Positions 8,342-24,419 of a stretch of 32,661 bases of DNA are shown in pieces; positions within the stretch are counted from its first letter, which is position 1; the number at the start of each line of letters is the position of its first letter. Origin of the DNA: Methylococcaceae bacterium (GTDB taxonomy: Bacteria; Pseudomonadota; Gammaproteobacteria; Methylococcales; Methylococcaceae). The notes below the pieces were generated by a model. That model had not been told where the DNA came from and did not search any database. It saw only the letters and a program-made list of their open reading frames with translations. The stretch covers positions 1 to 32,661 of the forward strand of contig CADDYU010000038.1 in assembly GCA_902810705.1 (NCBI GenBank). Reading direction: 5' to 3'. Made by a program: the position numbers and the translations under genes.

Positions 8342-11179
8342 TTACGACCTCGGAACGGGCAAATACACGAAAACACCAAGCACGTCGGCAGGCAACTTGG
8401 CTTCGATGTGCGCCGTGCCTCGCATTCGCGCCGCCTCTCGCACGCGCTCGTGCGCAGTGAGAATCTGTCGTCCGCGATCCTGAGCAAACCCGTTGAGCCA
8501 AGACCGAAGATGATCGAGGTTCGCGAGCACCTTGCCGATCACGTCGGCGGCTTGCGCGGCGCTGGTATTGGCGTTGGGCTCGACGGCCAGAAGGTGCTCG
8601 GCTGCATCCTGCGGCAGCCACTCCGGCGCATCCGGCGGACCAGCGAATGCGACGACCTGCGCGTCTTCAGCCAACAGCGGGGTGTCTTCGCCGGCGCCAG
8701 CACTGTTGATCTGGTATCGCAGCCGCAGCAACAAAATCGTCGTCCGCCTTTGCACGGCCGAGCTACGGATCACACCGCATCTACACGCCTTGGCTTGGCC
8801 GAGAGGGTCCAAAGCGTTGTCCAAAATGTGAGCGGCGAGCTTTTCGACGATTGGATGGGTGCGGGTAAGGTGCGTGACACCATCCGGGATGGGAAGCTGA
8901 AAGCGCGCTTCGATTGACGAGGAACTGGCGGAAATGTCGAGGGATTCGCGCAATCCCTGCGGGAGATCGGCCAGTTCGATGCGCATTGTGCCATTCGGCC
9001 GCTCCGTGACGGCGGCGCCATGGACCTTCATCGCATCGCGTGTAAAGCTGGCCACATCCACGCCAGAACCGATGGCAGCGCGGACCTCGGCCAGTTCGCG
9101 CGATACCTCTTCTACTTTGATCGTCTGCTGCGCAAACATGGTCAGCGATCGCTTCTCGCGGTCGGCCACACTTTCCCACTCGCGATGAACCTGCTTCTTC
9201 ATAGGCTCAAGAACGTCCTCATCGAATAGCGGCATCTGCTGAGCGTCCTGCCCGGAACGGCCCCTGAGCAGCAACCCCTCGAAGATGGCCTCCACAACTT
9301 TTTCCGTGTCGATTGGGACCGGCACTGAAATCCCCAACGACGTACGAATGTTCTTGTGCTTCCGAATCAGCACGTCAAGCACGATGCCGTCGATCTGGTT
9401 ATCAATGCCGTAGTACGTCAGGACGCGGACCTTATCCTCCGGTTGGCCATAGCGGTCTACCCGACCCTCGCGCTGCTCATGGCGCGTCGGATTCCAACTC
9501 AAGTCGTAGTGGAGAACGGCGCTGAATTGATCTTGCAGATTGATACCTTCGCTGAGGCAGTCGGTGCAAACCAAGACCCGCTTCTCAAAGCTGGCCAAGC
9601 GATTGACACGACTCTCGCGCTCCACGGGCGGCAACAGTCCTGTTACCGCCTCAATTTCGATGCTCTTACCGAGCTGAGCGCGAAGCTCCTCTGCCAAATA
9701 AATGGCGGTATCAATGAATCTGCAGAAGACGATGGGCTGAAAGCCGTCGCGAAGAAATTCCTTGACCAGCTTCACCGCTTTCTGGAGCTTTTCATCGCCC
9801 TTGCCGCACAGCGCATCCGCTTCCCGCGCCATGTCCAGCAGCCGTCGGCGCTGAGACTTCTGAGTAGATTCCTCCTCGCCTGTGTCGGCGCCAGGAGTTA
9901 CGTCGATGCCTTCAGCGGCTTCATCATTCACCATGTCTAACACGGTGCGCTGGCCAATTTCGTCGGCCTCTTCGGCTGATTCCGCATCGACAGTGGCAGC
10001 GCGACTTCTGAGCGTAGCGCCGGCGGCGGCGGGACTAGACGCCAGCGCCCGAAGCAGCGCCAGCGCCGACCACCATCGCACTCGCTGCCGCTGACGGCCA
10101 CCATCCGCATCGAGGACGCTCTCGCGGGCGTAGTTCAACACCTTCGCAAATAGTTTCTTGTAATCGGGCGACAGCTTGTAAGTATCCTCGCGTTCCTCGC
10201 GTTCGGGAAACGGAGTGTCCGCCTGCATGTAATGGCGGATGTCGCCGCGCCGGCGCTGGACTAGGTGCTGCGCGAGACGGCGGCGGTGTTGCTCGTTCTC
10301 GCGACCCGCTAAATCTTCTGGCAAATCGGCAAATTGGCGGTCTAGGAACAGCAGCAGGGAACGGAACGCCTCTTCGTTGCCGCTATGCGGCGTGGCCGTA
10401 ACCAGGATTAGGTGTCGATTCGCAACCGCAGAAAGCGCCTTCACGAGTTGATACCGCTGGTGGCGCCCGCCCCGACCGCCGGAAGCAAACGCACAGGTAT
10501 GGGCTTCATCAACGATGACCAGCTCGGGACAGGTGCGGATGAATTCGTCCCGCCGGCTGTCGGATTTGATGAAATCAGCCGAAACCACGGTGAACGGGTA
10601 TGCCTCGAAAATGGATTGCCCTGCGAGACAAGAGCGCTCAAGCCGGGAGGCCGTGCTAGACAACACCAATTCTGCGTCGATGTAGAATTTCTCCTTCAAC
10701 TCTCTCTGCCATTGCTCAGCTAAATGAGGAGGGCAGAGAATCGCTACCCGGTGAACTTCACCGCGATCTAGCAGTTCACGCATGACCAAACACGCTTCGA
10801 CCGTCTTGCCAATGCCCACATCATCGGCGATCAGCAATCGAACAGGATTGAGTTTCAGCGCCACCAGCAATGGCACCAGTTGGTATGGTCGCGGCTCAAC
10901 CGCGATCTTGGCGAAGGAGCGGAACGGCCCCGCGCTCGATCGGAAACCTAGCCGCAGCGCATCTCGCAGCAGCCGGCAGGATCGATAGTCGCCAATCTTC
11001 GTTGGGTCGGGTGGGCCAAAGACGGCAGGTGTAATCGCCTCAAGGCTGGTGTGGATGCCGGTGACTTCATCTTCCGTGCCGCTCAGCGGGCGCAGCAGAA
11101 CCAAGTGATCGTTGGATTCGGGAAGAACAACCCATTCGCGGCCGCGCGCTGATACAAGTGAACCAGGCGAAAAACTCAT
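8342..11179 (-). CDS. SNF2-family helicase/translocase (DrmD-like)
   Basis: This 945-aa superfamily 2 ATPase should translocate on double-stranded DNA without classical strand separation. Visible motifs are ADDVGIGKT (119-126, ATP binding), DEAH in VIVDEAHTC (224-227), TATPHSG (261-267), and in the second RecA lobe CTDCLSEGINLQ followed by HEQREGRVDRYGQ near residue 570. The region after residue 700 is acidic and helical with no recognisable nuclease. Its ATG at 11179 overlaps the stop of the DUF1998 helicase by 4 bases (ATGA). DISARM class 1 systems carry a SNF2 protein (DrmD) next to an adenine methylase, as here, so this is the closest named comparison. The helicase family is certain; the DISARM assignment is inference. 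Confidence 0.9.
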   Translation of the reverse strand: MSFSPGSLVSARGREWVVLPESNDHLVLLRPLSGTEDEVTGIHTSLEAITPAVFGPPDPTKIGDYRSCRLLRDALRLGFRSSAGPFRSFAKIAVEPRPYQLVPLLVALKLNPVRLLIADDVGIGKTVEACLVMRELLDRGEVHRVAILCPPHLAEQWQRELKEKFYIDAELVLSSTASRLERSCLAGQSIFEAYPFTVVSADFIKSDSRRDEFIRTCPELVIVDEAHTCAFASGGRGGRHQRYQLVKALSAVANRHLILVTATPHSGNEEAFRSLLLFLDRQFADLPEDLAGRENEQHRRRLAQHLVQRRRGDIRHYMQADTPFPEREEREDTYKLSPDYKKLFAKVLNYARESVLDADGGRQRQRVRWWSALALLRALASSPAAAGATLRSRAATVDAESAEEADEIGQRTVLDMVNDEAAEGIDVTPGADTGEEESTQKSQRRRLLDMAREADALCGKGDEKLQKAVKLVKEFLRDGFQPIVFCRFIDTAIYLAEELRAQLGKSIEIEAVTGLLPPVERESRVNRLASFEKRVLVCTDCLSEGINLQDQFSAVLHYDLSWNPTRHEQREGRVDRYGQPEDKVRVLTYYGIDNQIDGIVLDVLIRKHKNIRTSLGISVPVPIDTEKVVEAIFEGLLLRGRSGQDAQQMPLFDEDVLEPMKKQVHREWESVADREKRSLTMFAQQTIKVEEVSRELAEVRAAIGSGVDVASFTRDAMKVHGAAVTERPNGTMRIELADLPQGLRESLDISASSSSIEARFQLPIPDGVTHLTRTHPIVEKLAAHILDNALDPLGQAKACRCGVIRSSAVQRRTTILLLRLRYQINSAGAGEDTPLLAEDAQVVAFAGPPDAPEWLPQDAAEHLLAVEPNANTSAAQAADVIGKVLANLDHLRSWLNGFAQDRGRQILTAHERVREAARMRGTAHIEAKLPADVLGVFVYLPVPRS

Positions 11180-14100
11180 GCCGGCCTCCCGAACACGTCG
11201 GGATGGCGGGCGGCAATCTGATGCCAGTCGTCTGTCCCCTTGAACCGAATAACTTGATAGCCCTCATCCTCAAGGCTCGATGCCTGCGCCGCGTCGCGCT
11301 GCTGACGGTCAGCGAACTCGTGTGGCGGACCGTCTACATAGATGATCGCCATCGCCTCTTTGTAGGCGAAGTCGGGCCGCGTGCCACAGGTCTCAATCAA
11401 CACCTGCGCCGATGAAGGCAAAGCAAACCGATTGCTGTCGATGAATCGAAGCCAGCACCTCTCCAACTCCGACGATGTGAGGCGCATTAGCCGGTTCATG
11501 TGCTCTTCGCGCGAGGCGTCAGTAGGCGAAGTTTCAACGGTTGCGAGCGCCATGTCGAGCAATAAGTCCTTGATGGAATGACGGTCAAGCAGACGATGAT
11601 CCATCTGGTTGCCATAACTCATTAAGCAGTCGTAACACGCGGCAGTGCAGGTCTCCTTCGCTCGCGGCCCCTTCTCCAAGTCCTTACCCGTCGCCGGATC
11701 GAAGTGACACAGGGTTAGTGCCTGACGCGCGACGGCGGAGATTGCATTCGGGTCTTCCACGAGTTGGCGCAGAACTCCCGCGCCTCCCTCCGATGCCTCG
11801 TAGAGCAAGATAGATTTGCGTTGGTCCCGATTCGGCAGCGGCTCAGCAGATAATTCGCTATCCTCCAACTGGTATTCGATCTGCACCGCGCTCTTGATCG
11901 CCGCTTGCAGGGACGCCATCGCCGCATCGGATAGCTGGGCCGCGGGAGTGATGGTCAAACAGTTCCGTCGGTCTTCAACATACGGGACAACACGCTGAGT
12001 ACGGGGACCGAGGCCATCGGGTTGTGGAGCACCGTTGTCCTGCGCGTCCGAAGCCCATGTGCCTCGCTCGATGTCAAGCACGAATCCAAGTTGGTCACGA
12101 TTTGCGCGCCGGTTTTCGCCTGCATTGATCCGCCAAATCGTCGCCGTGTGTCCGTATCTGAGCTTTGCGACATCGCGATCTCCGTTGCTCACCTTCGCCG
12201 TGGCGCAGGAAATGCGGCCCTCTCGCTCGGCGAAGCGAAAGCCAGTCCTGATTTCGTAGCCGAGCCGTGTCCGCTCCTCTTCATCGCAGTTGATTCTGTC
12301 CCGCCTTCGCGTCGAGACATTCTGTAGGCGGAACAACGAGCGCATCGCAATGTCAAGACGAGCGCCGCAGTTGTGGCAGAGGTCTGGGCCGGGGCCTTCG
12401 AGAATTGGGTGAACATATCCGCATGATTGACAGGACTTGATCGACGACGTAACGAGCGACTGGTCCGTCGCGGAGCGCGACCCGGCAGGGATAATCGCCT
12501 TCTCTATAATGTAGCGCGATCCCTCGTGATAAACAAAAGCGCGCGGGCCGAACTCAGAAATCGCGAGAAAGCGGGGCCTGGAGAGGAAATCCTCGTCACC
12601 TTTGGTCGTCCGTCGGCCGGGAATAAACGCTGAGAGCGGCAGTCGGGGAAAATTGTAACCGGGCAAGAAACCTTCGCTGGCGAAATAGCGGTAGCTGTAG
12701 AAGTCAGAAAATGACTCGCCGCGCGTTCCCGATCGCTCGTTCGTTAGCAGCCGCAATTGGATTTCGGCTTCGTTTCGGATTTGCGTGGCGCGCGCTCGCT
12801 CCGCCTGGCGCGTTGGATCGCGCGCTATACGGCCTTGAATCACCGATTGCTGGAATGCCGCCTCGTAGAGTGTGCGCCATCGCTCACATGCTTGTTCAAA
12901 GCGCTGTGGTACGGTATCCAGCGCCTTCGCTAGCCAGTCATCCGTGTACCAGTCCGTCGTGAGCAAATCAGCTTCTATTGCGGACAAGACATGGCGCGCC
13001 CGGAGCGCTGCCTTGGCCCTGACTCCTGTGTCTTGCAAGGCAGCAACAATGCTCTCCTTCAGCGTGAGGCTCGGCGGTTCACCGGCGCAATCGATTAGTT
13101 CTTGCAGCGAGCTGCCGAGGCTCAGGCTGGCTTCCGACAGCCAAATCGCGTGGACATGCGCGCGAATCAAGTCTTCGTTTGTTAAGTCCAAGCGCGGCGG
13201 AACAACGCTTCCCGCGACCATCCGTTCCGGCTGCTGATAAAAATACTGATCGTGCGGACTACCCGTCGTGCAGTAGGTGAAGACCAGCGCCGGCTGACCA
13301 CTGCGTCCAGCCCGACCACTTCGCTGCGCATAGTTGGCGGGCGTAGGCGGAACATTGCGCATGTTAACCGTGTTCAACTCCGCGATGTCCACGCCGAGTT
13401 CCATCGTGGGGGAGCAGAACAGGATCGGCAGTCGGCCATCGCGGAACCTGTCTTCTCGATCAAGCCGCTCTTCGCTTGGAACTTGTGCGGTGTGCTCTCT
13501 TGCTTCAATGGAACGAATGTGCTGAGCGACTTGCCGATAGAAGTCAATAAAGAAGCTGTTCGTCTGCCCGCCACCGGCTGAGGGATCAGCGACTCGGAGC
13601 GGATCGAGCGGCGGCGCCTTGCCGTCACCTTCCTTCCAGATCATGCAGCCGGCTTGGAGTTGGTATGCGGGAACCTCGTCCGCATCGCGCGGCTCGCGCA
13701 CCCGTTCAACTATGCCGCCGATGCGAAGGGCGTTCAGCAGGTCGTTGATGATCTGTTGTGTCTCGACGAGCGACAGTTTGCCACCGTCAAACGTATTGTG
13801 CCGCCTCAAGAACCGACCGAAATCGCCGTAAGGGGAAACGTAGGTAAACGCCCGATCATCATTGATCCGGCGCGATCGTGGCAGCAGAAGGCGAGCATTC
13901 TCAAGCTGTTCATCTTCATCGATCGCCCAGCGGCCCGCGAGCCGCTGGCGGCTGCGCTCGCGGATGCGGATTTGCCCATTCTCATCCAAACACTCAACTT
14001 TAATGGCAAGCTCACGGCGCATATAATCAAGTAGCGCCCGCGATACCTTCTCCCTCGTCTGCGGTGTCGCCGATACCAACGCTGCGTGGGATTGCGTCCA

Positions 14101-16365
14101 AACGTCCTCGGCCTTGCAGACTTCTGCGAGCGATTCGTAGTCGATGACCAGCAGGCCACACTGTTCGAGATTTGGCGAGGTAAGGCGCCACCCGCGCTGA
14201 AGGTCAAGGTACAGTCGGTATGCGAGGACGTCACACATCGCGCGACGCGTCTCGATTTCGGCTTGGAATCGCGCTTGATCGTTGCTCGCGTATGACTCGA
14301 ACGGAAGCGCTAGGGCTTCAAAGACCTTCTGCGGCAACTCCTCCTGCCGCAGCCCCGCCTTCCCGCTGCTCACCACTGCCTTGTACAGCGCGCCGCGCAG
14401 CACAGTGACTTCCACGAAATCGTTGAGGTGTCCCGCCTGCAAAGAAGCGTCTTGTCGGTTGTCCGTGAAGCTTAGCAGCTTGGGCGAAAGTCCCGCTGTT
14501 CCCTTCATTCCTCTGATGGCAGAGATGGACAGAATCGTCGTCGCCGTGCTGCGCCCGCCCGTGCCCAAAGAACCGAGCTTGCCCACGTCCGAATCTCGGC
14601 GCGCACTGTATGCGACACCGCATTCTGGCTGTAAACAGAGGCGGAAGGGCGCCGGGACAAATACGCAGTCGATTCCTCCGGGTGCCTCTTTGCCGTCTTT
14701 CCCGATCCTAACCGGCTGTGGCAGATACTTTTCTTGGCTCGGCTTGAGGCGCAACTTACCTCGATGCTCCTCAAGCCAGTCCGACGGCACGCGCGCCTCA
14801 ATCTCATCTCGGTCAGTTGGCCACGGTGACTGCGAGCTAAGATAGAGGAAGCCAGGCTCTAACGTTTCGCTTGCGGGCCGCCGTTCTTCCAACCGCCGCG
14901 GCGTAAAAAATAAATCTCCGTTGTCCTCCTGCCCTCGCCAAACGCAGTAATATTCCTGACCACACTGGCGGCAGAACACCAACGGGAGAAGTACGCGGGA
15001 ACGATCAGCAGGTACGAACTGTTGCCCTTTAACGGTAACAAATCGCTGCCGCTCCGGCTCGAAGGATGCGTAAACGGTGTCGCCGCGCCCGATGAACTGA
15101 TGAACACGAAATGCGAACACCGGCTTTCCGTCATCCGTCTTCACGGAAAAGCCCGCTAGTAGCCATTGGCGGATGCGGTTAGCACAGATGTCCTCCTCAA
15201 CACCTGTTGCTCGGGAGAGTAGCCGTGCGGCGCCATCTGGGCCGCTCAGCGGCCGGGGAACGGCGCGAATCAATCGGTGTGTCGTTGGCTCGTGGACGAC
15301 GCCGAACGTGCTCTCGATCCAAATTGACAGGGGATGATGCAAGAATACTTCTGGCTCGCCTGGGGGCGTGCAATCCGGGAGCGCAATGGCGGCGGCCAAC
15401 GTGTTGAGAAAGCTGGAACTGTTCGCGTCAGCGACAGGAGATGCGCGCGATAACGTTTCTCCAATGATGTTCTCAGGGCGCACTGCGCCACCGAAGAGAC
15501 TCGAAGCGACTCGTGCGACTTCGGCTTGCTGCTGTTGCAGTGTACCCGGAGCGGCAAGCGTCGCCGACGTTCCCACGCACTGCATCTGGTCGGCCCGCAT
15601 GAACTCACGCACGCGCCGAACGAGCATGGCCACGTCCGCACCCTGGCGCCCGCGATAAGTGTGAAGCTCATCAAGGACGAGAAACCGAAGGCCCTGCGCC
15701 GCGCGAATCAGTGCCTGCTCCTTCACCCGCGTCAGGATCAATTCGAGCATCATGAAGTTGGTCAGCAGAATGTCCGGCGGCTGCTCGATGATTCGGTTTC
15801 GCTGTTCTTCAGTCTCCTGCCCAGTATAGCGCTCGAACTTGACTGGCCCCCGGCCATCGGGATAGCCGTCCTGCAAGAACTTACTTAACTCGCCATATTG
15901 ACTGTTTGCCAACGCATTCATCGGGTAGACGACGATTGCTTGGATACCGCGCCCACTTCCGTTGCGAAGCACATGGTCAACAATTGGGATGATGTACGAG
16001 AGGCTCTTCCCTGACCCCGTGCCTGTTGTCAGGACGTAATTCTCTCCGCCCCGTGCGACCCGGACCGCCTCGGCTTGGTGCCGATGCAGGCGAAATTCGA
16101 TGCCGGCCCCGCCCGTTTCCCTCTTCTTGAGTCGGAATACCTCCCTGCACTTCGCGTGCAGGACTCCGGCCTCCACCAATTCTTCGACAGACTCTCCGGG
16201 TTCAAACGCGGGATTCAATTGGATGAGCGGATCGGGCCAGAGCAGGCCACGGTCAAGCTCGCCTTCGACAAGGGCGCGAATGTCTGGATCGCGGATTTGG
16301 ATGAAACTGCGGACGTACCCTGAGTAGTCGTTGACCAGCTTGTCGCGCAGTTCAAAAACATTCAT
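11176..16365 (-). CDS. DEAD/DEAH helicase with DUF1998-type region and C-terminal Vsr/DUF559-like nuclease
   Basis: This is the first gene of the operon. The start at 16365 (MNVFELRDKLVNDY) has AGGGG 7 nt upstream; a frame 15 codons longer lacks support. The 1,729-aa protein has TTGTGSGKS (113-121), VVYPMNALANSQ, DELH (232-235), TSATL (266-270) and QRSGRAGR (about 1013-1022), the pattern of COG1205/YprA-like helicases. A CxxC...CxxC knuckle lies near 1310 (CQSCG...CHNCG). The DUF1998-type region includes LYEASEGGAGVL near 1518 and CYDCLMSYGNQ near 1575. The last ~110 residues contain RPDF near 1660, VDGPPHE near 1677 and GYQVIRF near 1703, matching the order of the Vsr/DUF559 nuclease fold. 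DruE of Druantia and DrmA plus DrmB of DISARM are the nearest known relatives. It likely unwinds and cuts unmodified invading DNA. Confidence 0.9.
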   Translation of the reverse strand: MNVFELRDKLVNDYSGYVRSFIQIRDPDIRALVEGELDRGLLWPDPLIQLNPAFEPGESVEELVEAGVLHAKCREVFRLKKRETGGAGIEFRLHRHQAEAVRVARGGENYVLTTGTGSGKSLSYIIPIVDHVLRNGSGRGIQAIVVYPMNALANSQYGELSKFLQDGYPDGRGPVKFERYTGQETEEQRNRIIEQPPDILLTNFMMLELILTRVKEQALIRAAQGLRFLVLDELHTYRGRQGADVAMLVRRVREFMRADQMQCVGTSATLAAPGTLQQQQAEVARVASSLFGGAVRPENIIGETLSRASPVADANSSSFLNTLAAAIALPDCTPPGEPEVFLHHPLSIWIESTFGVVHEPTTHRLIRAVPRPLSGPDGAARLLSRATGVEEDICANRIRQWLLAGFSVKTDDGKPVFAFRVHQFIGRGDTVYASFEPERQRFVTVKGQQFVPADRSRVLLPLVFCRQCGQEYYCVWRGQEDNGDLFFTPRRLEERRPASETLEPGFLYLSSQSPWPTDRDEIEARVPSDWLEEHRGKLRLKPSQEKYLPQPVRIGKDGKEAPGGIDCVFVPAPFRLCLQPECGVAYSARRDSDVGKLGSLGTGGRSTATTILSISAIRGMKGTAGLSPKLLSFTDNRQDASLQAGHLNDFVEVTVLRGALYKAVVSSGKAGLRQEELPQKVFEALALPFESYASNDQARFQAEIETRRAMCDVLAYRLYLDLQRGWRLTSPNLEQCGLLVIDYESLAEVCKAEDVWTQSHAALVSATPQTREKVSRALLDYMRRELAIKVECLDENGQIRIRERSRQRLAGRWAIDEDEQLENARLLLPRSRRINDDRAFTYVSPYGDFGRFLRRHNTFDGGKLSLVETQQIINDLLNALRIGGIVERVREPRDADEVPAYQLQAGCMIWKEGDGKAPPLDPLRVADPSAGGGQTNSFFIDFYRQVAQHIRSIEAREHTAQVPSEERLDREDRFRDGRLPILFCSPTMELGVDIAELNTVNMRNVPPTPANYAQRSGRAGRSGQPALVFTYCTTGSPHDQYFYQQPERMVAGSVVPPRLDLTNEDLIRAHVHAIWLSEASLSLGSSLQELIDCAGEPPSLTLKESIVAALQDTGVRAKAALRARHVLSAIEADLLTTDWYTDDWLAKALDTVPQRFEQACERWRTLYEAAFQQSVIQGRIARDPTRQAERARATQIRNEAEIQLRLLTNERSGTRGESFSDFYSYRYFASEGFLPGYNFPRLPLSAFIPGRRTTKGDEDFLSRPRFLAISEFGPRAFVYHEGSRYIIEKAIIPAGSRSATDQSLVTSSIKSCQSCGYVHPILEGPGPDLCHNCGARLDIAMRSLFRLQNVSTRRRDRINCDEEERTRLGYEIRTGFRFAEREGRISCATAKVSNGDRDVAKLRYGHTATIWRINAGENRRANRDQLGFVLDIERGTWASDAQDNGAPQPDGLGPRTQRVVPYVEDRRNCLTITPAAQLSDAAMASLQAAIKSAVQIEYQLEDSELSAEPLPNRDQRKSILLYEASEGGAGVLRQLVEDPNAISAVARQALTLCHFDPATGKDLEKGPRAKETCTAACYDCLMSYGNQMDHRLLDRHSIKDLLLDMALATVETSPTDASREEHMNRLMRLTSSELERCWLRFIDSNRFALPSSAQVLIETCGTRPDFAYKEAMAIIYVDGPPHEFADRQQRDAAQASSLEDEGYQVIRFKGTDDWHQIAARHPDVFGRPA

Positions 16366-16845
16366 GTTCCGGCCCCTGGAAAGGGCGCGCAGCCTAACGA
16401 GCGGCGGCAATCCACCGCGTTTCGCCTGGAATCCGCTCGAATGGCAAGCCCGATGTGGCGTTAGTTTTACCCGCGATCACGGGACCGTTCCAGAGGCGCG
16501 TTAAGTCGCGGCAGGGTATAGACCTTGGCGAAGTCAGGGAACAGCGCTACCGGTTCTGCTTCAAGGGTTTGATCCATGACACCAAAGACCCCCCTACCCC
16601 CCAAGCAAAAACTTGGAGGCGCGACGGGGGCTGCGGACGCGCACAGACGCCGCCGATTAAGCCCGCGTTGCGCTTGGTCTGCCCCAATGGGAATCACCAA
16701 GCACCTGTAATCCCCGGAACTTCTTTCACGTCGCACTCCGGGGTCCGACCCACGACGGCTCGCAAATCTATCGCGCGCTCGCGCGAGCACTGCATCGATC
16801 GAAGCGTTGCAGCGCGTTTCGGCGCGTTTTCTACGCTGTCTCCCG
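16366..16845. other. Intergenic region between defence operon and phage genes
   Basis: This 480-bp gap separates the divergent defence operon and phage late genes. The minus-strand side carries the AGGGG ribosome binding site of the helicase gene. A TTGCCA element lies further upstream but has no convincing -10 partner. A short plus frame (16576-16710, about 44 codons, starting MTPKTPLPPKQ) has no good support. A minus-strand frame ending about 16467 with KVYTLPRLNAPLERSRDRG reads somewhat protein-like at its 3' end and could be a gene remnant, but I cannot establish that. The right end holds the phage promoter-like repeat. Confidence 0.5.
16803..16835 (+). promoter_or_regulatory. Phage promoter-like repeat, copy 1
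   Basis: TTGCAG (16807-16812) is followed after exactly 17 bases by TCTACG (16830-16835). The 17 bases 16803-16819 are identical to 22498-22514 upstream of the portal gene, where the same spacing leads to TCTACC. Conservation of both boxes and spacer length across 5.7 kb suggests a shared sigma-70-like phage promoter. The start codon at 16846 lies only 10 bases after the -10 box, so the transcript may be leaderless. Confidence 0.6.
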
Positions 16846-17220
16846 ATGGACCTGCAAAGCTCGCAATCGGTCTTCGGATCGCTCAGTTCCGCCAACGCAA
16901 CGACCGCCGCCGCCGTGGACCTGACGGACGGCGACGGCAACGCCGTCGCACTCGCACCGAATCATCGCGTTGTCATCACCGACATCGTGATCGTCGTCGG
17001 CGCCGACATGCGCGTGGATCTCTTCAGCGACGCCAACGGCGATGGAAGCGTGGCTGCGGGCGAGCGGCTGGTCGGCGGCGCCTTCGGGAAGAACGGCGGC
17101 CTGGCGATGAGCTTCATCAACACGCCGCGTTACTGCCGGCGCGGGTTGATTCCGAAGGTTAAGACCGACGCCGCTGGCCAAGTCGATGTGAACTTCACCG
17201 CCCGCCTCTACACCGCCTGA
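16846..17220 (+). CDS. Hypothetical phage structural protein (124 aa)
   Basis: The protein begins MDLQSSQSVFGSLSSANATT at an ATG 10 bases beyond a promoter-like -10 box. No Shine-Dalgarno sequence precedes it, which fits a leaderless message. The sequence is rich in Val, Gly, Asp and Ala, with predicted beta strands (NHRVVITDIVIVVGADMRVDL) and an Asp-rich loop DANGDGS that looks like a calcium-binding turn. The composition suits a small beta-sandwich virion protein such as a decoration, neck or fibre-associated protein. It stands first in the phage gene series and is followed 3 bp later by a lectin-like protein. No specific family is recognised. A longer frame from 16807 would begin within the promoter and is rejected. 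Confidence 0.6.
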   Translation: MDLQSSQSVFGSLSSANATTAAAVDLTDGDGNAVALAPNHRVVITDIVIVVGADMRVDLFSDANGDGSVAAGERLVGGAFGKNGGLAMSFINTPRYCRRGLIPKVKTDAAGQVDVNFTARLYTA

Positions 17221-17223
17221 TCG

Positions 17224-17913
17224 ATGAACAAGCTCATTTCCCGATCTTCGATCATCAAACGCGGCGGTCCCGCTGGATACGCCGGCATGATCCTCGCCTT
17301 GAATCCGGTTGCGTATTACCGGCTCGGCGATGCGAGCGGTCCCTTGGTTGACGCGACGGGCAACGGCCACGAGCTAACGGTTGACGCCCTGCAACTCGAC
17401 CAGACCGGCGCCATCAACAATGACACGAATCTCGCCATCAACTGCAACGGCGGGAGAGGTTACACCAACGGCGCCGCGTTCACCCTGACGTACCCGTTCA
17501 CGTTCCTGCTGTGGATGCGGCCCAACGGGTTCTTCATCAACTGCCCGTTCGGTAAAAAGCTCGCCTACAACTTCGGTGTCGAAGAGTACGCGCTCTTCTA
17601 CTTCCTCAGCGATACGCCGTCGTTCCTCGGGCAGGGCTTCGGGCTGTCCACTCCATCGGGCCAGTGGTCGCTCGTATCCATCGTCGGGATTGACGCGACA
17701 CACCACCGCTTCGGTGTGAACAAGACCTACAACAGCGGCGGCGGCTTCGGCGCGCTTCCCGGCAATACCGGCCTCGAATTCAGCCTGGGCAACACGCAGA
17801 GCAAGAACGCCGGATTTGACGGCAAGCTCGACGAATTCGCCTTCATCAACTCCGCCCTCTCAACCGTGCAAATCGACGCTCTCTACGACAAGGCTACGGA
17901 GGTTCTGCCGTGA
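17224..17913 (+). CDS. LamG/concanavalin-like phage protein, probable tail fibre or adsorption component
   Basis: This 229-aa protein carries a single LamG-type jelly-roll domain. The typical opening LNPVAYYRLGDASGPLVDATGNG is at about residues 25-47, then come FTFLLWMRPNG, a WSLVSIVGIDATHHRFGVN stretch, and the closing FDGKLDEFAFINSALSTVQIDALY. Such domains bind carbohydrate or mediate adhesion and are common in phage tail fibres and in PVC-group secreted proteins. There is no signal peptide, consistent with a virion protein. The start at 17224 follows the previous stop by 3 bases, and the stop overlaps the next start (GTGA). Placement next to the terminase genes fits a circularly permuted phage map with tail genes adjoining the packaging genes. 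Domain call is strong; the virion role is inferred. Confidence 0.75.
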   Translation: MNKLISRSSIIKRGGPAGYAGMILALNPVAYYRLGDASGPLVDATGNGHELTVDALQLDQTGAINNDTNLAINCNGGRGYTNGAAFTLTYPFTFLLWMRPNGFFINCPFGKKLAYNFGVEEYALFYFLSDTPSFLGQGFGLSTPSGQWSLVSIVGIDATHHRFGVNKTYNSGGGFGALPGNTGLEFSLGNTQSKNAGFDGKLDEFAFINSALSTVQIDALYDKATEVLP

Positions 17914-18110
17914 GTAAACCGTGTCAGTGGGATGGCGGGTGCTGCAAAGCCGCCTTGCCCAAAGAACGATTTTGCCCCGCGCATCGGGTTGCCATGCTTC
18001 GGCGGATGGAAGCAGACGGCTACTTGCAGCCGATCCCGCAGGACACCGCGCCGCGCAGCAACGGGCAATGCGAAGACGTCATGGAGACGAAGTTCGGACG
18101 TGAGGAATGA
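17910..18110 (+). CDS. Small Cys-rich probable zinc-binding protein
   Basis: This is a 66-aa protein with a GTG start at 17910 that overlaps the previous stop by 4 bases. Its N-terminal half has C-x5-CC-x9-C-x2-H (CQWDGGCCKAALPKERFCPAHR), a spacing suited to a single zinc-binding knuckle. The rest is charged and probably disordered. Its own stop overlaps the TerS start as ATGA, so translation of the three genes is likely coupled. It could assist DNA packaging or be a small regulator. No family assignment is justified. Confidence 0.65.
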   Translation: MSKPCQWDGGCCKAALPKERFCPAHRVAMLRRMEADGYLQPIPQDTAPRSNGQCEDVMETKFGREE

Positions 18111-18598
18111 GTGCCGACCACGCCAAGAAACGCCGCGACGCGAAGCTCTCGAAGTGGCTTCGGGAGCTGCTGGGGCGAAACGCGCCGATCGAGTTCCAAA
18201 TCGAGGCGGAACTGCTCACCGGCGATCCGGGGAAGACCAACGCCGAAATCATCGCTGAGAAAGTTGTCGAGGCGGCGCGAGAGGGAAAGCAGTGGGCGAT
18301 CGAACTGATTCACGACCGCACGGAAGGCAAGCCGGTTCAAGCGGTCAAGCAGGACGAAGGCGATCGCAGCGTTGAAGAACGGATCGAAGATGTCACGGTT
18401 CAACATCTCAACGGCCTCGCACGAAAGCTCGCCGCCGTTGGCGACAGCGGAAGCTCCCCGCTCAGCGCTGATCCCCCTGAGCCGGCGAATCCAAAACCTC
18501 ACGAACACGGCGCCGGTCCTGCTCACAAGCCCGCCGCCCCAGCACGGTCTCTTCTGGACCTGCCCCAAGACCGGGATCGTGATTCCCAAGACGCTTGA
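18107..18598 (+). CDS. Probable phage small terminase subunit
   Basis: This is a 163-aa protein whose ATG overlaps the upstream stop (ATGA), with GTGAGGA just before it. The first 80 residues are helical and charged, with the segment AAREGKQWAIELIHDRTEGKPVQAV. This is a hallmark of phage and prophage terminase small subunits of the DUF5681-like group, in which the DRTEGKP motif recurs. The C-terminal half is rich in Pro and Ala and looks flexible. It lies immediately upstream of the large terminase, which it would recruit to the packaging site. The last 200 bases overlap the proposed start region of the large subunit in another frame. Confidence 0.7.
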   Translation: MSADHAKKRRDAKLSKWLRELLGRNAPIEFQIEAELLTGDPGKTNAEIIAEKVVEAAREGKQWAIELIHDRTEGKPVQAVKQDEGDRSVEERIEDVTVQHLNGLARKLAAVGDSGSSPLSADPPEPANPKPHEHGAGPAHKPAAPARSLLDLPQDRDRDSQDA

Positions 18599-20372
18599 AG
18601 CGAACCTCAAGTGGCGCCGGCAACTGCTCAACGAAGCCGCCTTCGCCGACCATTTTCAGAACCAACTCCGTGCCGCGTGCGCCGCGTCGCCGTGGTTCTG
18701 GATCAACGCCTTCGTGTTCACCTTCCGCCAGAAGAAGGTTCTGTCGAATGGCGAGGAAGTTCCCTGTACCGGGCACGAAGCGCACCACCCGTTCATCACC
18801 TGGCTCGTTCAGGACGAATTCATTGGCGAGTTGATCGACGCCATCGACGGCGGCCATGACGTGCTGATTAACAAGAGCCGCGACATGGGCGCATCGTGGC
18901 TCTGCCTCACGGTGCTGCACTGGTACTGGCAGTTCCGCTCCTCCTGCACGTTCCTCGAACTCAGCCGCAAAGAGGAATACGTGGACAAGAAGGGGTCGAT
19001 GGACAGCCTGTTCGAGAAGCACCGCTACATCAACAAGTGGCAACCGCGCTGGCTGCTCCCGCAACACACGCTCGACGACAAGTACATGCACCTGGGCAAC
19101 CCGGACAACGGGTCGGCCATTGAAGGCGAATCCACCAACGGCGACGCGGGCCGCGGTGGACGAAAGACCGCCGTTCTGAAAGACGAATTCGCGGCCGTGC
19201 TCAATGGCGCCGAAGTCGATGCTGCGACCGCCGACACGACCGCTTGCCGCATCTACAACTCGACGCCGAAGGGGCCGGGCACGCAGTTTCACAAAATCTT
19301 CAAGGAGCGCCGGGCGCGCGTTCTCACGCTGCCTTGGTGGCGACACCCGGAGAAAGGCGCGGGCGCGCGCCAAGTCCTCGACGAAGCCGGCAAACCAAAA
19401 TGGACCTCGCCCTGGTACGAAGCGGAAAAGCTGCGCCGCGACAAGAAAGCGATGGCGCAGGAAGTGGACATGGACCACGGCCAAGCCGGGGACATGTTCT
19501 TCGACCACGATGAAATCGACCGCCACCGCCGGGCACACGAGAAGGCGCCGGTCCTCACCGGCACCCTCAGCCTGATCGTTGAAGACGCCGGGGACGAACG
19601 GAAACGAGCGATCATCGGCAAGGGATTGGCCGAGGCGTTCACGTTCGCCCGCGGTGGCGAGCGGCCGGCGTGGAAGCTCTGGATTCCGCTGGTCAATGGT
19701 CGGCCGCCGCAAGACTTGAGCTATTGCTTCGGCATCGACATTTCCAACGGCGCCGGCGGATCGAACTCGGTGCTGTCGGTCATCGCGGACGAAATCAACA
19801 TGAAGGTGGCGGAGTTTGCCTCGCCCTTCGTGTCGCCGGAAGAACTCGCGGAAATCGCGTGCTTCGCTGGCGTGTGGTTCGGCGGCGCCGGCGGCTCAGC
19901 GTTCCTCTGCTGGGAGAACAACGGACCCGGCGGCATCTTCGGCCGCAAGGTCGTCAAGCTCGGCTACCGCAAGTTCTATTTCCAGCGGCAAGACAACACG
20001 CAAGCGGAACAGAAGACCCCGCGCTGGGGCTGGCACTCGAACCAGCAGCGCAAGGAAATCTTGCTCGCGCGCTATCGCGAGGCGCTGGCGAAGGATCAGA
20101 TCATTAACGCCTGCAAGGAATCGCTCGATGAAGCGCTGGATTACGTCTACGACGAAACCGGCCTGCTCATTCCCGGCCGGCTCAAGCAGGAATCAGGTGG
20201 CGGGCGCGCGCTTCACGGCGATCGCGTCATCGCCGACGCGCTGACGATCCTGGCGCGCGAAGAACTCCCCTCGAAAAAAGGAAAGCGAACGCACGCGCCG
20301 GTCGGGAGCTTCGCCGGCAGGCGTGATGCGCACAAACGGAAGCTCAAAGAAGCGGACATTTGGAGGGATTGA
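18390..20372 (+). CDS. Phage terminase large subunit (packaging ATPase/nuclease)
   Basis: This is the motor that pumps DNA into the capsid and cuts the concatemer. The ATPase has the atypical P-loop [11 protein letters not shown] (about residues 160-170) and Walker B AVLKDEF (about 262-268). The nuclease domain has acidic residues in CFGIDISNG (about 450) and GDRVIADAL (about 612-616). The segment [10 protein letters not shown] before the P-loop is typical. The start is uncertain: an ATG at 18390, a TTG at 18372 and a GTG at 18579 are in frame. [21 protein letters not shown] before the conserved core looks like coding sequence, so I favour a start upstream of the GTG. This gives about 209 bp of overlap with the small terminase gene. 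Function is secure. Confidence 0.92.
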
Positions 20373-20374
20373 AC

Positions 20375-20698
20375 ATGGCAGGACAGCAGTACGACAACAC
20401 GAACCGCGGCGCGCTATTCAAGAACGATCGCAAAGAGAACGGCGACGCGCGGCCCGACTATACCGGCAAGCTCGACGTGAACGGCGAGACGTTTTACGTC
20501 AGCGGGTGGGTGAAGGAAATCAAGAACGGCGAACGCGCCGGACAGAAGTTTCTTTCGCTCGCGATCCAGCCGCCTCGCGAGAACGGGCAGCAGAAGCCGG
20601 CTGCCAACGCCCAGCGTCCGCAACGACCGGCCCGGCCGGCGCCGGCCAACTCGGTCAGCGAGGAACAACAGTTCGGGGAAGACGACATCCCGTTCTAA
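20375..20698 (+). CDS. Phage protein with SSB-like acidic tail (possible DNA-binding protein)
   Basis: This 107-aa protein starts at the ATG at 20375, with GGAGGG 7 nt upstream and 2 bp after the terminase stop. The N-terminal part ([52 protein letters not shown]) resembles small phage proteins with one OB-like beta fold and DUF736-like features. A Pro/Ala-rich linker leads to a C-terminal GEDDIPF, the peptide by which single-stranded DNA-binding proteins recruit partners. It could be a minimal SSB, or a protein that mimics the SSB tail to bind replication or recombination enzymes. Whether it binds ssDNA cannot be seen from sequence alone. Confidence 0.7.
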
Positions 20699-20707
20699 GG
20701 GCAAGCC

Positions 20708-20953
20708 GTGGCGCAGCGCGTGGAACTCCTGCTCATCGCCGGCCCGTTGAGCGGCCGGCGCGTCAGCGTGGATCACATTCTCGACAACGAAGTGTTCCAC
20801 CTGGAGGACCAGCAAACGCTGCTGTGCTACGAGCGCGACGCGGACAGTCTTAACTACTTCTTCAGCGCGGAAAAGACAGCATGGTTCAACAGCAATTACG
20901 AGCTTGCGATGGCGCGGCTCGGATCGACGTTCCAGCGGGTCGCATTCGAGTGA
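20708..20953 (+). CDS. Hypothetical phage protein (81 aa)
   Basis: The frame opens with a GTG at 20708, 9 bp after the previous stop, and ends with a TGA that shares its last base with the next ATG. The protein begins VAQRVELLLIAGPLSGRRV, then has an acidic middle (DHILDNEVFHLEDQQTLLCYERDADS) and aromatic residues (LNYFFSAEKTAWF). The GPLSGRRV opening recalls small phage proteins of unknown role. No domain is recognised. Its position in a tightly coupled run of genes argues it is expressed. Confidence 0.65.
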   Translation: MAQRVELLLIAGPLSGRRVSVDHILDNEVFHLEDQQTLLCYERDADSLNYFFSAEKTAWFNSNYELAMARLGSTFQRVAFE

Positions 20954-21312
20954 TGAAGACACTGTACATCAGCGGCCCGATGACCGGCTACGCGGGTTCC
21001 AATTACGCGGCGTTCAACGAAGCTGCCGCACGCCTTCGCGCCAAGGGATTCTCGGTCGAGAACCCGGCCGAGAACTTCAACGGCGAGGCACATCATCCGC
21101 GCGAGGCGTACATGAAGCTGGACATCGCGCGAGTGCTCAGGTCTGACGCTGTGGCCGTGCTGCCGCTCTGGAATTTCAGCAAAGGCGCACGCCTCGAAGT
21201 CGCCGTCGCCTGCGCAATCGGCCTGCCGATCTTGTACGCCGAGACGCTTGAACCCGTGCCGGCGTGGAAGTGCAGGCTGGAAGTCGTGGAGGAAGATCGT
21301 GACGAAGACTAA
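20953..21312 (+). CDS. DUF4406 / nucleoside deoxyribosyltransferase-like protein
   Basis: This is a 119-aa protein with an ATG at 20953 that overlaps the preceding stop by one base. The opening MKTLYISGPMTG is the hallmark of DUF4406, a Rossmann-like relative of nucleoside 2-deoxyribosyltransferases. AFNEAAARLRAKGFSVENPAEN and LRSDAVAVLPLWNFSKGARLEVAVACAIGLPILY follow in the expected order. Family members are frequent in phages and are thought to act on nucleotides or their derivatives, though few have been characterised. It lies directly before a nucleotide pyrophosphohydrolase gene, so the two may work together on the nucleotide pool. The domain is confident; the reaction is not known. Confidence 0.85.
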   Translation: MKTLYISGPMTGYAGSNYAAFNEAAARLRAKGFSVENPAENFNGEAHHPREAYMKLDIARVLRSDAVAVLPLWNFSKGARLEVAVACAIGLPILYAETLEPVPAWKCRLEVVEEDRDED

Positions 21313-21763
21313 GGCGCGGTTCGAGACGAAAGACAGCGGAAAGCGCGCCGAGTACGCGACCGGCGCCAAGCGCGATACCAACGATGGCAAGGGACGTTAC
21401 GACCTGTTGCCGGTTATCGCGCTGCGGCGCATCGCGCAGCTCTACCAGCGCGGCGCCGAAAAGTACGAGGCTCGCAATTGGGAAAAAGGCATCCCCGATT
21501 CCCGCTTCGCCGACTCGTGCATGCGCCACCTGTGCCAGTACATCGAGGGCGACCGGGAAGAGGATCACGCCGCCGCCGTCGTGTTCAACGCCCTGGGCCT
21601 GATCTTCAATGACGAAATGGTGCGCCGCGGCCTCCTGCCGACGACGTTGCTTGATCTTCCGAACTACATGCCGAAAGGAAATGTCCGTGCGCAATCTCGA
21701 ACTGCTCAGCGCCGTCCTGTGGTTTCTGTGCGGCCTGTTCTTCGCCGCCGGAAGCGCCGTTGA
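21299..21763 (+). CDS. Phage dATP/dGTP diphosphohydrolase-like protein
   Basis: This 154-aa protein starts at the GTG at 21299, with GGAGGAA about 8 nt upstream, and overlaps the previous gene by 14 bp. The core reads KGRYDLLPVIALRRIAQLYQ, GAEKYEARNWEKGIPDSRF, CMRHLCQYIEGDREEDHAAA and FNALGLIFND. These acidic and aromatic positions match the all-alpha domain found in phage proteins named dATP/dGTP diphosphohydrolase N-terminal (DUF5664-type). It would hydrolyse or bind deoxynucleoside triphosphates. The last 30 residues are Arg-rich and overlap a small membrane protein gene in another frame. That tail may therefore be unconserved. Confidence 0.75.
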   Translation: MTKTKARFETKDSGKRAEYATGAKRDTNDGKGRYDLLPVIALRRIAQLYQRGAEKYEARNWEKGIPDSRFADSCMRHLCQYIEGDREEDHAAAVVFNALGLIFNDEMVRRGLLPTTLLDLPNYMPKGNVRAQSRTAQRRPVVSVRPVLRRRKRR

Positions 21764-21788
21764 TCTGCTCAAGAACCTGTGGAAATGA
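21681..21788 (+). CDS. 35-aa single-pass membrane protein
   Basis: This short frame begins MSVRNLELLSAVLWFLCGLF, reaches FAAGSAVDLL and ends in a KNLWK stretch. Residues 8-27 form one hydrophobic helix with small residues, flanked by a positively charged end. AAAGGAA lies directly before the ATG. It overlaps the 3' end of the pyrophosphohydrolase gene in another frame. Such a protein could be a holin-like, anti-holin or membrane-attached phage protein, but its length is too small for assignment. The regular hydrophobic pattern and ribosome binding site argue for a real gene. Confidence 0.5.
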   Translation: MSVRNLELLSAVLWFLCGLFFAAGSAVDLLKNLWK

Positions 21789-21815
21789 TGCGCCCCACAC
21801 AACCGGCTGAAGCAT

Positions 21816-22487
21816 TCATTCACCACCATCGCGAATCCACGGGAACGGTTTCTTTAAGTCGATCTCATCGCCGTACCGGATGCTGCGCACTTCCAAAGTC
21901 TGCGGACCCACACCGGAATCCCAGCCGTCCTTAATGGCGTCATAGATGCTCTTGCAGAGCCGGAAATGCAACTCGCGAAAGTGCTGACGAAACTCGGCCG
22001 TTGCGGCCTCCTTCGGGTGTAGGCCATCGTATCGGAGCGGCACGGGGTAACGGCCCCAATACGGGATCGCATCTTGGCACACCGACAGCACGTGCCGATC
22101 TTCATCCGTCAGAGATAGGTCCGTCACAGATCGCGCCAACTCCACCAACTTGTGGCTCTTGATCGAACCGTGAAGATGGCCCTGATTTACCAAAGAGGGA
22201 TTTCGCGAAACGAGGATACCCTTTAAGGCGTTTTCGAGAGCCAAGCCAGCCAACAGTATGTACGACCGCGCATGCCCGGCGCTTCGCTCTATTTGCGAAG
22301 TGTCGGTTGCAGCAGTTTGCATCTCAATCGCCATGAAGTTGTCCGAACGCGACCAGAGGGATTCAGTAGCCTCGGCAAGCTCTTCTGCGTACGACAGCCA
22401 CTCCGACGGCATAGCGTCGCGCACAAACAGTTGCTTCTGATTGAACTGGTCGAGTTGCTCGTCCGTTGTGTCTGGTGGAAGTTCCAT
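21816..22487 (-). CDS. HEPN-like protein, reversed within the phage late genes
   Basis: This 223-aa protein is encoded on the strand opposite to all surrounding phage genes. The ATG at 22487 has AGAGGGA upstream. Its middle part ARSYILLAGLALENALKG, followed by ILVSRNPSL and SHKLVELARSV, matches the helical HEPN-type pattern found in nucleotide-targeting and toxin-related proteins. The classical Rx4-6H ribonuclease motif is not present in exact form (R to H is eight residues apart), so catalytic activity is uncertain. The N-terminal half is rich in Glu and Trp. As a single reversed gene between a small membrane protein and portal, with its own start region facing the portal promoter, it looks like a moron gene for host fitness or superinfection exclusion. 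It is not an ordinary structural gene. Confidence 0.7.
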   Translation of the reverse strand: MELPPDTTDEQLDQFNQKQLFVRDAMPSEWLSYAEELAEATESLWSRSDNFMAIEMQTAATDTSQIERSAGHARSYILLAGLALENALKGILVSRNPSLVNQGHLHGSIKSHKLVELARSVTDLSLTDEDRHVLSVCQDAIPYWGRYPVPLRYDGLHPKEAATAEFRQHFRELHFRLCKSIYDAIKDGWDSGVGPQTLEVRSIRYGDEIDLKKPFPWIRDGGE

Positions 22488-22497
22488 ATTCCCTCTG

Positions 22498-22530
22498 AGC
22501 GTTGCAGCGCGTTTTCACGCCTTCTCTACC
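22498..22530 (+). promoter_or_regulatory. Phage promoter-like repeat, copy 2 (portal)
   Basis: TTGCAG (22502-22507), 17 bases, then TCTACC (22525-22530). Its first 17 bases equal those of copy 1 at 16803-16819. The element lies between the divergent HEPN-like gene and portal. The portal ATG follows after 29 bases with an AGAGAGGG ribosome binding site, so this transcript has a normal leader, unlike that of copy 1. Confidence 0.62.
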
Positions 22531-22559
22531 TTGGACCGCGAGAGAGGGCGAGAAACACG

Positions 22560-24419
22560 ATGACGCAAAAGACGCCGATCCAGCGGCTCTGCCGGGCCGT
22601 CGAACTCGGCTTTCAGAAGATGCAGGTCGCGCGCGACGCGCGCTACAGATTCCTGGCGCAGTACGTCGGTCCCTTCTACTCCAAATCCAAAGGCTCGGCC
22701 AACAGCGACGAACGAAAAGCGTCGCCAATCAATCTCATGTGGAACGGCGTTACGACGCTTGTTCCCAATCTCGTCTACAACGATCCGCGCGTCAAAGTCC
22801 GCACGGAAGTCATGGCGTATCGGCCGTACGCCGGCACACTCGAGCTGGCGACCAATCACCTCATCCGAAAGATCAAACTTCGCCACACGCTGCGAAAGGT
22901 CATCACCGACGCGCTGTTCTGCGCCGGCTTCGTCAAGACGGGCATCGGCGTCTCCGGCCAGACCCTCGATCTCGAAGGTAAGTGGCACGACATCGGTGAG
23001 CCTTACGCCGATCGCGTTGATCCCGACGACATGGTTCTCGACCCTATGGCCCGCGATTGGGACGAGATGAACTTCGTCGGCAATCGCTTCCGCATGAAGA
23101 AGCACGAGCTTCTTGAGAGCGGGTTGTACGACAACGGTCTGGTCGAAAAGCTGTGCTCCCGTTACGACGCCGGCAAATTCCGCAAAGAGGCTTCGAGCGT
23201 CGGCGGCGATGCGAATGCCGTGGAGACGTTCAACCGCGACGTGGCCGATTACGTCGATCTGGTTGAAGTCTACCTGCCCAAAGAGCAGATCATCGTCACC
23301 ATCCCATACGGCAATTACGGTGGGCGCGGCGAGGACGACACGGTTCTTCGCGCGGTCGAATATGAAGGGCCGGAAGCTGGCCCGTATCACATGCTCGGTT
23401 TCGCTTACGCACCGGACAACGTGCTGCCCGTGCCACCCGCGAGCATCTGGTACTACCTGCACGTCATGGCGAATCGGATCGCCCGCAAGATCGGGCGACA
23501 GGCCGAGCGCATGAAAAGCGTCCTGGCGTATGACGGCACGGCCGTCGAAGACGCGCAGGAAATCGCCGACGCCGACGATGGCGAGACCGTGCGCGTGGAC
23601 AACATCGATGGCATCAAAGAAGTGAACTTCGGCGGTACGACCGACGAAGCCTACGCCTACCTGCAATGGGTCCAAGGCGAGTTCTCCAAGCAGGCCGGCA
23701 ACATCGACCTGCTCGGCGGCACACAGGCGGATCAGAACACGCTCGGCCAGTCGGAAATCCTGCAAAACAACGGGCAGGTCCGGCTCGGCGACATGCAGAA
23801 CATCAACTACCACTTCACCGCCGAGGTCTGCACCGACCTGGCGTTTTTCCTGCACACCGACCCGCTCATCGACTTGATGCTGACCAAGCGCATCAACGGC
23901 ATCGACACGCAGGTGCGCTACACGCCCGAAATGCGTGAGGGCGACTTCTTCGACTACATGCTGTCGATCCAGCCGTACAGCATGGCGCGTCAAGACCCCA
24001 ACGTGAAGATTCGCCGCGTGCTTGAGTTCATCCAGACCGGCCTGCCGGCGATGGCGCAGGCGTACCAGATGCTCGGCCCCGCGTTCAACATCGAGAACGC
24101 GATGAACCTGGTCATGCGCGAAGTCGGGATCGAGGAAGGCGACGAACTGATTAACTCCGCGGCGCTGCAACAGCAGGTTCAGATGATGCTCGCACAGCTT
24201 CAAGCCGGCGGCGTTGTCGCGGATGGCAAAGCGGCGCAGTTCCAGATGAACGGCGGCATCATTCCGCCGGCGCAGCCGGCGCCCCTCTCGATGCCGATGG
24301 GCGGGCGCCCGCAGCAGCCCAATCCCTACCAGATGGGACCGACCGGCGGCGTTTCGCCGGAGCAGGAAGCCAACGCCCGCTATCAGGAGCGCAGCGCTCA
24401 GCTTCAAGCGGCCCGCTGA
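22560..24419 (+). CDS. Phage portal protein
   Basis: The 619-aa protein starts at the ATG at 22560 (MTQKTPIQRLCRAVELGF), with AGAGAGGG about 7-13 nt upstream. A longer upstream frame would run through the promoter. The portal forms the dodecameric ring through which the terminase pumps DNA. Supporting features are an N-terminal helical region, NLMWNGVTTLVPNLVYNDPRV, the DRVDPDDMVLDPMARDWDE segment typical of this portal group, and YYLHVMANRIARKIGRQAERM. A long C-terminal Gln- and Pro-rich tail closes the protein. It has the usual portal length and sits where one would expect it relative to terminase. I place it as portal by this pattern rather than a single diagnostic motif. Confidence 0.8.
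   Translation: MTQKTPIQRLCRAVELGFQKMQVARDARYRFLAQYVGPFYSKSKGSANSDERKASPINLMWNGVTTLVPNLVYNDPRVKVRTEVMAYRPYAGTLELATNHLIRKIKLRHTLRKVITDALFCAGFVKTGIGVSGQTLDLEGKWHDIGEPYADRVDPDDMVLDPMARDWDEMNFVGNRFRMKKHELLESGLYDNGLVEKLCSRYDAGKFRKEASSVGGDANAVETFNRDVADYVDLVEVYLPKEQIIVTIPYGNYGGRGEDDTVLRAVEYEGPEAGPYHMLGFAYAPDNVLPVPPASIWYYLHVMANRIARKIGRQAERMKSVLAYDGTAVEDAQEIADADDGETVRVDNIDGIKEVNFGGTTDEAYAYLQWVQGEFSKQAGNIDLLGGTQADQNTLGQSEILQNNGQVRLGDMQNINYHFTAEVCTDLAFFLHTDPLIDLMLTKRINGIDTQVRYTPEMREGDFFDYMLSIQPYSMARQDPNVKIRRVLEFIQTGLPAMAQAYQMLGPAFNIENAMNLVMREVGIEEGDELINSAALQQQVQMMLAQLQAGGVVADGKAAQFQMNGGIIPPAQPAPLSMPMGGRPQQPNPYQMGPTGGVSPEQEANARYQERSAQLQAAR

Follow-up and report, generated by a model that had tools for sequence, protein, structure and literature searches.

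An ARMADA Type I-like defense operon with a fourth, SMC-like gene adjoins phage virion genes in a Methylococcaceae genome

As described in the main text of a recent preprint (PMC12458937, Bell et al. 2025), ARMADA Type I loci generally encode two helicases, first a YprA-like and then a BrxHII-like one, followed by a PglX-like methylase, and the YprA protein bears a Vsr-type nuclease domain. The activity tests reported there were performed on Type II only, and found this type to confer protection, to need all four of its genes and to leave cells intact (PMC12458937). The window analyzed here, i.e. the whole stretch of DNA under study, equals the entire contig C38 (32,661 bp) of a Methylococcaceae assembly of 375 contigs (93.6% complete, 4.78% contaminated). 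It contains a defense operon of four minus-strand genes, spanning positions 1843–16365:

11176–16365, minus strand: operon gene 1, YprA/DruE-like DEAD helicase of 1729 aa, with MZB and a C-terminal DUF559
8342–11179, minus strand: BrxHII/RapA/DrmD/DpdE-like Snf2 helicase of 945 aa (Pfam: Helicase_C and SNF2-rel_dom)
3909–8309, minus strand: PglX/DrmMI-like adenine methyltransferase of 1466 aa (Eco57I, 3.5e-17; N6_Mtase, 6.9e-10)
1843–3867, minus strand: operon gene 4, SMC/LmuB-like ATPase (possible start at 3867, within an ORF that is open from 3912)

In gene set and gene order (YprA, then BrxHII-like, then PglX-like), the operon is like ARMADA Type I as portrayed in the main text of the preprint, and a putative nuclease-type domain at the C-terminus of its YprA may add to this likeness. 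The shared traits comprise a YprA-family helicase with DEAD, Helicase_C and an MZB/DUF1998-type domain (Pfam E-values of 1.6e-27 for DEAD, 3.8e-15 for Helicase_C and 2.4e-10 for MZB), a BrxHII/RapA-like helicase gene, which is common with DISARM, and a PglX-like methyltransferase gene. The C-terminal match of YprA (residues 1640–1725, E = 1.3e-5) is to DUF559, a family related to the Vsr-type nuclease. For the Snf2 helicase, PADLOC returned DpdE (3.4e-268), DrmD (6.9e-87) and BrxHI/HII (1.4e-59), and NCBIfam returned DrmD at 1.7e-95, below the cut-off of that model. The methyltransferase matched DrmMI in PADLOC (1.1e-63) as well as PglX models below their cut-offs, and an NPPW motif was read by eye. 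The fourth protein matched LmuB over 42–639 (PADLOC, E = 5.5e-13) and carries, as read by eye, a Walker A-like GHGVGKTT and an HDSPRE motif; a search for related solved structures returned none at E up to 0.1, and its structure model (mean pLDDT 46) was not used. From these matches, we interpret the operon as an antivirus system that is ARMADA Type I-like and extended by a fourth, SMC-like gene. This additional gene, together with the adjoining virion genes, distinguishes the window from Type I as described in the preprint, in whose main text (supplements aside) the terms SMC, Lamassu, DUF2326, AbiE and Planctomycet are absent.

Related systems share parts of this architecture. Three protein families are common to the operon and ARMADA Type II, whose order is given in the main text of PMC12458937 as BrxHII, PglX, YprA and GajB; however, the window's operon starts with YprA, and its fourth protein matches LmuB, with GajB not among the three families listed for it. 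A Type II assignment was rejected on these two grounds. Druantia comes in through DruE, the best PADLOC match of the YprA protein (1.9e-98), yet the window also has BrxHII-like and methylase genes, and DruH was not among the matches listed, which for three of the four operon proteins are the best 25 of 34–50 PADLOC matches. A DrmD-like helicase and a DrmMI-like methylase recall DISARM class 1; in the window, however, DEAD helicase and MZB module reside in one protein rather than in separate DrmA and DrmB, and DISARM was therefore discarded. DrmB and DrmC were found neither among the three families listed for the fourth gene nor among the other matches listed. Finally, the fourth protein resembles Lamassu in its match to the LmuB model, but its gene sits in a helicase-methylase operon, and no LmuA-type effector was among the matches listed.

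The SMC-like gene recurs behind the same three genes elsewhere. In 19 genome loci, gathered by exact short patterns and thus a sample rather than a census, tblastn recovered YprA in all 19, BrxH in 18 and the methylase in 16, in the same order, with the missing genes falling beyond contig ends. At least three of these loci (L008, L013 and L016) have the SMC-like gene behind the trio, a lower bound because, in at least nine of the 19, the available sequence stops within the operon or less than 2 kb past the methylase. The SMC-like protein additionally matched eight of 72,556 plasmid records; its gene follows YprA, BrxH and methylase in seven of these, and the eighth has no ARMADA gene within 16 kb. 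This fourth position in seven of eight plasmid records and at least three of 19 genome loci marks the four-gene form as a recurrent unit. Two of the plasmids encode a Mu/TniA-type transposase and TniB behind the four-gene operon (L200, 18633–21401, which also has TniQ; L202, 20657–23152), and this suggests carriage by transposons.

YprA itself matched 109 of the 72,556 plasmids (in 68, the match spans 80% or more of the protein), and six of 61 genomes of the wider family and order gave a strong match (the window's own genome included). Only one of 50,697 phage records was matched (Ruminococcus phage NatCom_28274, a YprA-family protein), in a stretch without a BrxH or methylase match. The operon was found without the window's phage genes in the 19 genome loci, in four loci of relatives and on plasmids, and no ARMADA locus of another genome or of a plasmid matched any of these phage genes. 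Its neighbors vary. For the 97 ORFs that flank it in 14 loci, the listed families range from porphyrin-synthesis, GroEL and transporter genes to those of conjugation and CBASS type, alongside phage-type repressors and two integrase families with one member each, and neither terminase nor portal was among the best 25 of 89 Pfam and 25 of 70 PHROGs families. Several copies among the 19 genome loci look damaged, with a stop within the translated stretch (L007), YprA or methylase matching in separate pieces (L021 and L016, respectively) or parts of YprA and most of BrxH lacking (L025). This distribution points to a self-contained module that probably moves between genomes and plasmids. As the operon occurs in other bacteria and on plasmids without the phage, its pairing with a phage in the window looks local.

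The preliminary description had placed the operon less than 500 bp from the first phage gene and pointing away from it, and we confirm both: with the YprA-like gene (minus strand) starting at 16365 and the first phage gene (plus strand) at 16846, 480 bp lie between the two divergent units. The junction and the features on its two sides are as follows:

185–448, minus strand: weak small ORF on the far side of the operon
1455–1733, minus strand: weak small ORF (DUF6934 match at E = 0.008, below the DUF6934 cut-off)
16366–16845, no strand: intergenic junction of 480 bp between defense operon and phage late operon
16807–16834, plus strand: putative promoter-like repeat TTGCAG-N17-TCTAC, copy 1, before the first phage gene
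16846–17220, plus strand: first phage gene, 124 aa, predicted all-beta (jelly-roll-like), with homologues in related viral contigs
17224–17913, plus strand: LamG/concanavalin-like protein (Laminin_G_3, 1.1e-8; phrog_18503, 2e-8)
18107–18598, plus strand: probable small terminase (TerS), named by position (DUF5681 at E = 0.088, not significant)
18438–20372, plus strand: large terminase (TerL), 644 aa (PHROG terminase matches; 60% identical in L120)
20360–20698, plus strand: phage single-strand DNA-binding protein (phrog_18154, 3.1e-19)
20881–21312, plus strand: DUF4406/nucleoside 2-deoxyribosyltransferase-like protein, in the equivalent place in L120
21299–21763, plus strand: dATP/dGTP diphosphohydrolase-like protein (PF18909, 7.7e-21), in the equivalent place in L120
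21816–22487, minus strand: gene between dGTPase-like gene and portal, with no Pfam or PADLOC match at the limits used
22502–22529, plus strand: putative promoter-like repeat, copy 2, before the portal
22561–24419, plus strand: portal (SU10_portal, 3.3e-8; phrog_1216; 50% identical in L091, 63% in L120)
24430–24759, plus strand: Zn-ribbon protein, which follows the portal in relatives
24792–30659, no strand: cell-type block of about 6 kb between Zn-ribbon and scaffold genes (whole gap ~6.4 kb)
29928–30605: prepilin/DUF1559-like protein (DUF1559 part below cut-off), which may point to a host of Planctomycetota type
31177–32361, plus strand: scaffold-like phage protein, named by position (54% identical in L090, 33% in L091)
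32393–32661, plus strand: N-terminal 89 aa of a major capsid-like protein, named by place and conservation; the contig end cuts the gene

The small genes reported earlier on the far side of the operon correspond to the two weak minus-strand ORFs at 1–1.8 kb. Apart from DUF6934, neither has a family match, no phage gene was recognized in these 1.8 kb left of the operon, and ORF 1458–1697 had no match on plasmids. Likewise in agreement with the preliminary description, neither integrase nor att site was found in the window (with a subset of ORFs scanned), whose contig ends on both sides. There is no long direct repeat flanking and no clear att-like repeat within the window, no tRNA gene occurs in the whole 32,661 bp, and words common to the junctions stayed at chance level, bar one 12-base match (16401 vs. 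32302) that exceeds the 95% point of shuffles (11). A comparison of the right contig end with its own genome returned no joining contig and, besides itself, chance-level matches only.

The phage identity of the late genes noted in the preliminary description stands, given TerL, the portal and homologues in a similar order. These genes are interrupted, however: with positions 24792–30659 being cell-type, they form one virion module in two parts (16846–24759 and 31177–32661). Related contigs were reached from the 89-residue capsid fragment, followed by profile scans, which yielded at least 559 TerL relatives (80 kept). The resulting set of 89 viral contigs omits L123, a duplicate, and includes the full record L102 in place of L091; similar contigs (e.g. 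L095/L097, L187/L189) were kept separate. The capsid fragment is 78%, 73% and 63% identical in L090, L091 and L092 (IMG/VR), and has no PHROG or other family match; its alignment found only the window itself among 398 genomes of the phylum, and the rest of this gene did not turn up in the assembly. The scaffold-like protein is without family match (a weak PHROG match at most). Single-sequence searches retrieved only the window itself for the portal (viral contigs, phages and the 398 phylum genomes) and for TerL (viral contigs and 38 family genomes); by tblastn with a limit of E = 0.01, TerL had matches in 140 of the 50,697 phage records.

The first gene of the module deserves separate mention, as its protein had no significant Pfam or PHROG family match. 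Homologues were detected in six of the 89 related viral contigs; the gene precedes TerS in L091/L102 and L120 and follows it in L094. An AF2 model built from four sequences (pLDDT 90.4) gave a best viral match in BFVD at E = 1.7e-5, and weak matches in the PDB (best E = 1.7e-3), a phage cement protein among them. Homologues in phage relatives and a confident model with a viral match thus support 16846–17220 as a phage gene.

L120 matches the window in the order all-beta protein, small gene, TerS, TerL, single-strand DNA-binding protein, DUF4406, dGTPase-like protein and portal, but lacks the LamG gene as well as the minus-strand gene before the portal, such that dGTPase-like gene and portal adjoin. 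The same late-gene order is seen in L120 and L091/L102, and from TerL to the capsid gene also in L094–L099. What sets the window apart from these related phages is the ~6.4-kb cell-type stretch, the extra minus-strand gene and the ARMADA operon upstream. The putative promoter-like repeat, allowing up to three mismatches, occurs in two copies genome-wide, both in the window, and its reversed control in none.

The cell-type block consists, in order, of genes for Hsp20 (minus), a response regulator (plus), a histidine kinase (minus), a LuxR-type regulator (plus), a response regulator (minus), a BNR protein (minus) and a pseudopilin (minus). Portal end and capsid start are 7974 bp apart in the window, compared to 3476 bp in L090 and 1486–2961 bp in 50 of the 51 related contigs that have both genes. 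We consider these genes cell-type because relatives of the BNR protein occur in 29 of 38 family genomes, counting the window's own, and the histidine kinase has three paralogues in the same genome (38–47% identity); the neighbors of the BNR gene in ten relatives have none in common. Kinase or regulator genes of the block were also matched in three ARMADA loci (L018, L038 and L201). Among the 89 related viral contigs, the kinase had a match in L090 only, where a kinase (31.5% identity, E = 1e-40, over most of the kinase length) sits in the corresponding position, flanked by the Zn-ribbon and scaffold genes. This shared slot argues for a real insertion and against a misassembly of ARMADA, phage and host sequences into one contig. 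Such a misjoin would fit a MAG that is as fragmented and contaminated as this one and in which phage and cell genes alternate; nevertheless, the junctions seen fall between genes and cut none, and L090 is a separate IMG/VR record, with which an unrelated misassembly would hardly agree. This last point is limited, as the portal of L090 is itself truncated and L090 therefore no clean control: its record L106 (9181–18111) contains the truncated portal and an antiporter-like gene (by eye) beside an integrase, and has no TerL match. On the whole, we regard misassembly as improbable.

The preliminary description left two origins of the operon side by side, prophage cargo or a phage having entered a defense locus. 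Both are kept here, within narrower limits: the operon is no regular component of the phage lineage, since related phages carrying it in the same place were not found, with none of the four genes present in any of the 89 viral contigs (stretches of up to 10 kb from the match). We slightly favor the operon being lineage-specific cargo within an integrated phage, at the upstream edge of its late operon (probability of about 0.5). In support, two of ten related phage records, which are mostly fragments, contain an integrase, and non-phage genes do enter this lineage as cargo, as the kinase in the L090 slot and the antiporter-like gene beside the integrase indicate. Six loci with YprA relatives came out of a profile scan of viral contigs. 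In L210, a tape-measure-like ORF (33% identity, the match covering 36% of the ORF) is followed 4.7 kb later by YprA, BrxH and the start of a methylase. The phage nature of L210 rests on this gene match and its IMG/VR listing, as a further upstream ORF (1131–1574) matched nothing in the phage records. Contig L211 breaks off inside YprA; the N-terminal half that it shows follows a tail-protein-like ORF at 1.9 kb, with one ORF between. The two offer a thin precedent for phage carriage of ARMADA. L208, L212 and L213 contain YprA relatives as well. L209 was rejected as proof of such carriage: its BrxH pieces (1473–4468) lie beside an ORF matching phage small terminases, but since they are two and opposed, the contig may be rearranged or misjoined.

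Somewhat short of even odds, in our judgment, is a chromosomal defense locus beside which lies the late half of a truncated or rearranged prophage, its early half lost or elsewhere. Consistent with such a remnant, the left 1.8 kb are without a recognized phage gene, the virion block is already broken by cell genes, the capsid remainder was not found in the MAG, and the neighbors of the operon are diverse, the families listed for 14 loci including neither terminase nor portal. Moreover, the same genome harbors a second copy beside AbiEii and AbiEi genes. On contig C174 (L033, 1–8112), these two genes are upstream of a YprA that is 87% identical to that of the window and is accompanied by the start of BrxH (89% identity over 305 residues). 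Of nine plasmid loci, one, on a Mesorhizobium plasmid, has relatives of this AbiE pair ahead of ARMADA; of 23 genome loci, one (L037) has an AbiEi-like gene there. Against a chromosomal locus speak the whole phage genes at the junction, whose flanking genes are all uncut, the repeat before 16846 that matches the one before the portal, and the cases of L210 and L211, where ARMADA-like genes (a fragment in L211) lie in the vicinity of phage-like tail genes. Base composition differs between the two sides of the junction, with a third-position GC of 0.66–0.68 in the operon and 0.75–0.91 in most phage genes of the window (TerS, 0.67). Yet, this gap is only a weak sign of separate origin, because YprA has a value of 0.81 in the C174 copy vs. 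0.67 in the window.

Comparison of the two YprA copies revealed purifying selection (dN/dS of 0.042, with dS of about 2 being near saturation). Both copies have the motif GGGTAAAACTA ~105 bp before the YprA start, and the motif core GGGTAAAA was present in none of 20 other loci in up to 400 bp upstream of YprA. Given this common upstream motif and the opposite direction of transcription, the operon is probably expressed apart from the late genes.

What the analysis directly establishes is the content and order of the genes and the purifying selection acting on YprA; the functional steps are all ones that we infer. Based on its domains and on the published Type II system, the PglX-like methylase may mark self DNA. 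The Snf2 and YprA helicases would then load on unmarked or replicating invader DNA, to be cut by the nuclease-type C-terminal domain of YprA. Sensing or holding of DNA ends has been proposed for LmuB-type proteins, and the SMC-like ATPase may act in the same manner.

Several aspects make this locus worth pursuing. An ARMADA Type I-like system adjoins intact phage virion genes; its recurrent four-gene form with an SMC-like ATPase can be tested as one unit; and the phage virion block holds a large stretch of cell-type signaling genes. A broader proposal, which we consider unlikely, is that the phage lineage (with temperate members and Planctomycetota-like hosts) keeps cargo slots both inside and at the edge of its virion genes, namely a slot for two-component genes between Zn-ribbon and scaffold and one for ARMADA-SMC at the head of the late operon, and that ARMADA repeatedly enters unrelated phages at the borders of late modules. 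If the operon indeed lies inside a prophage, this phage would be carrying a large multi-gene defense system against its rivals.
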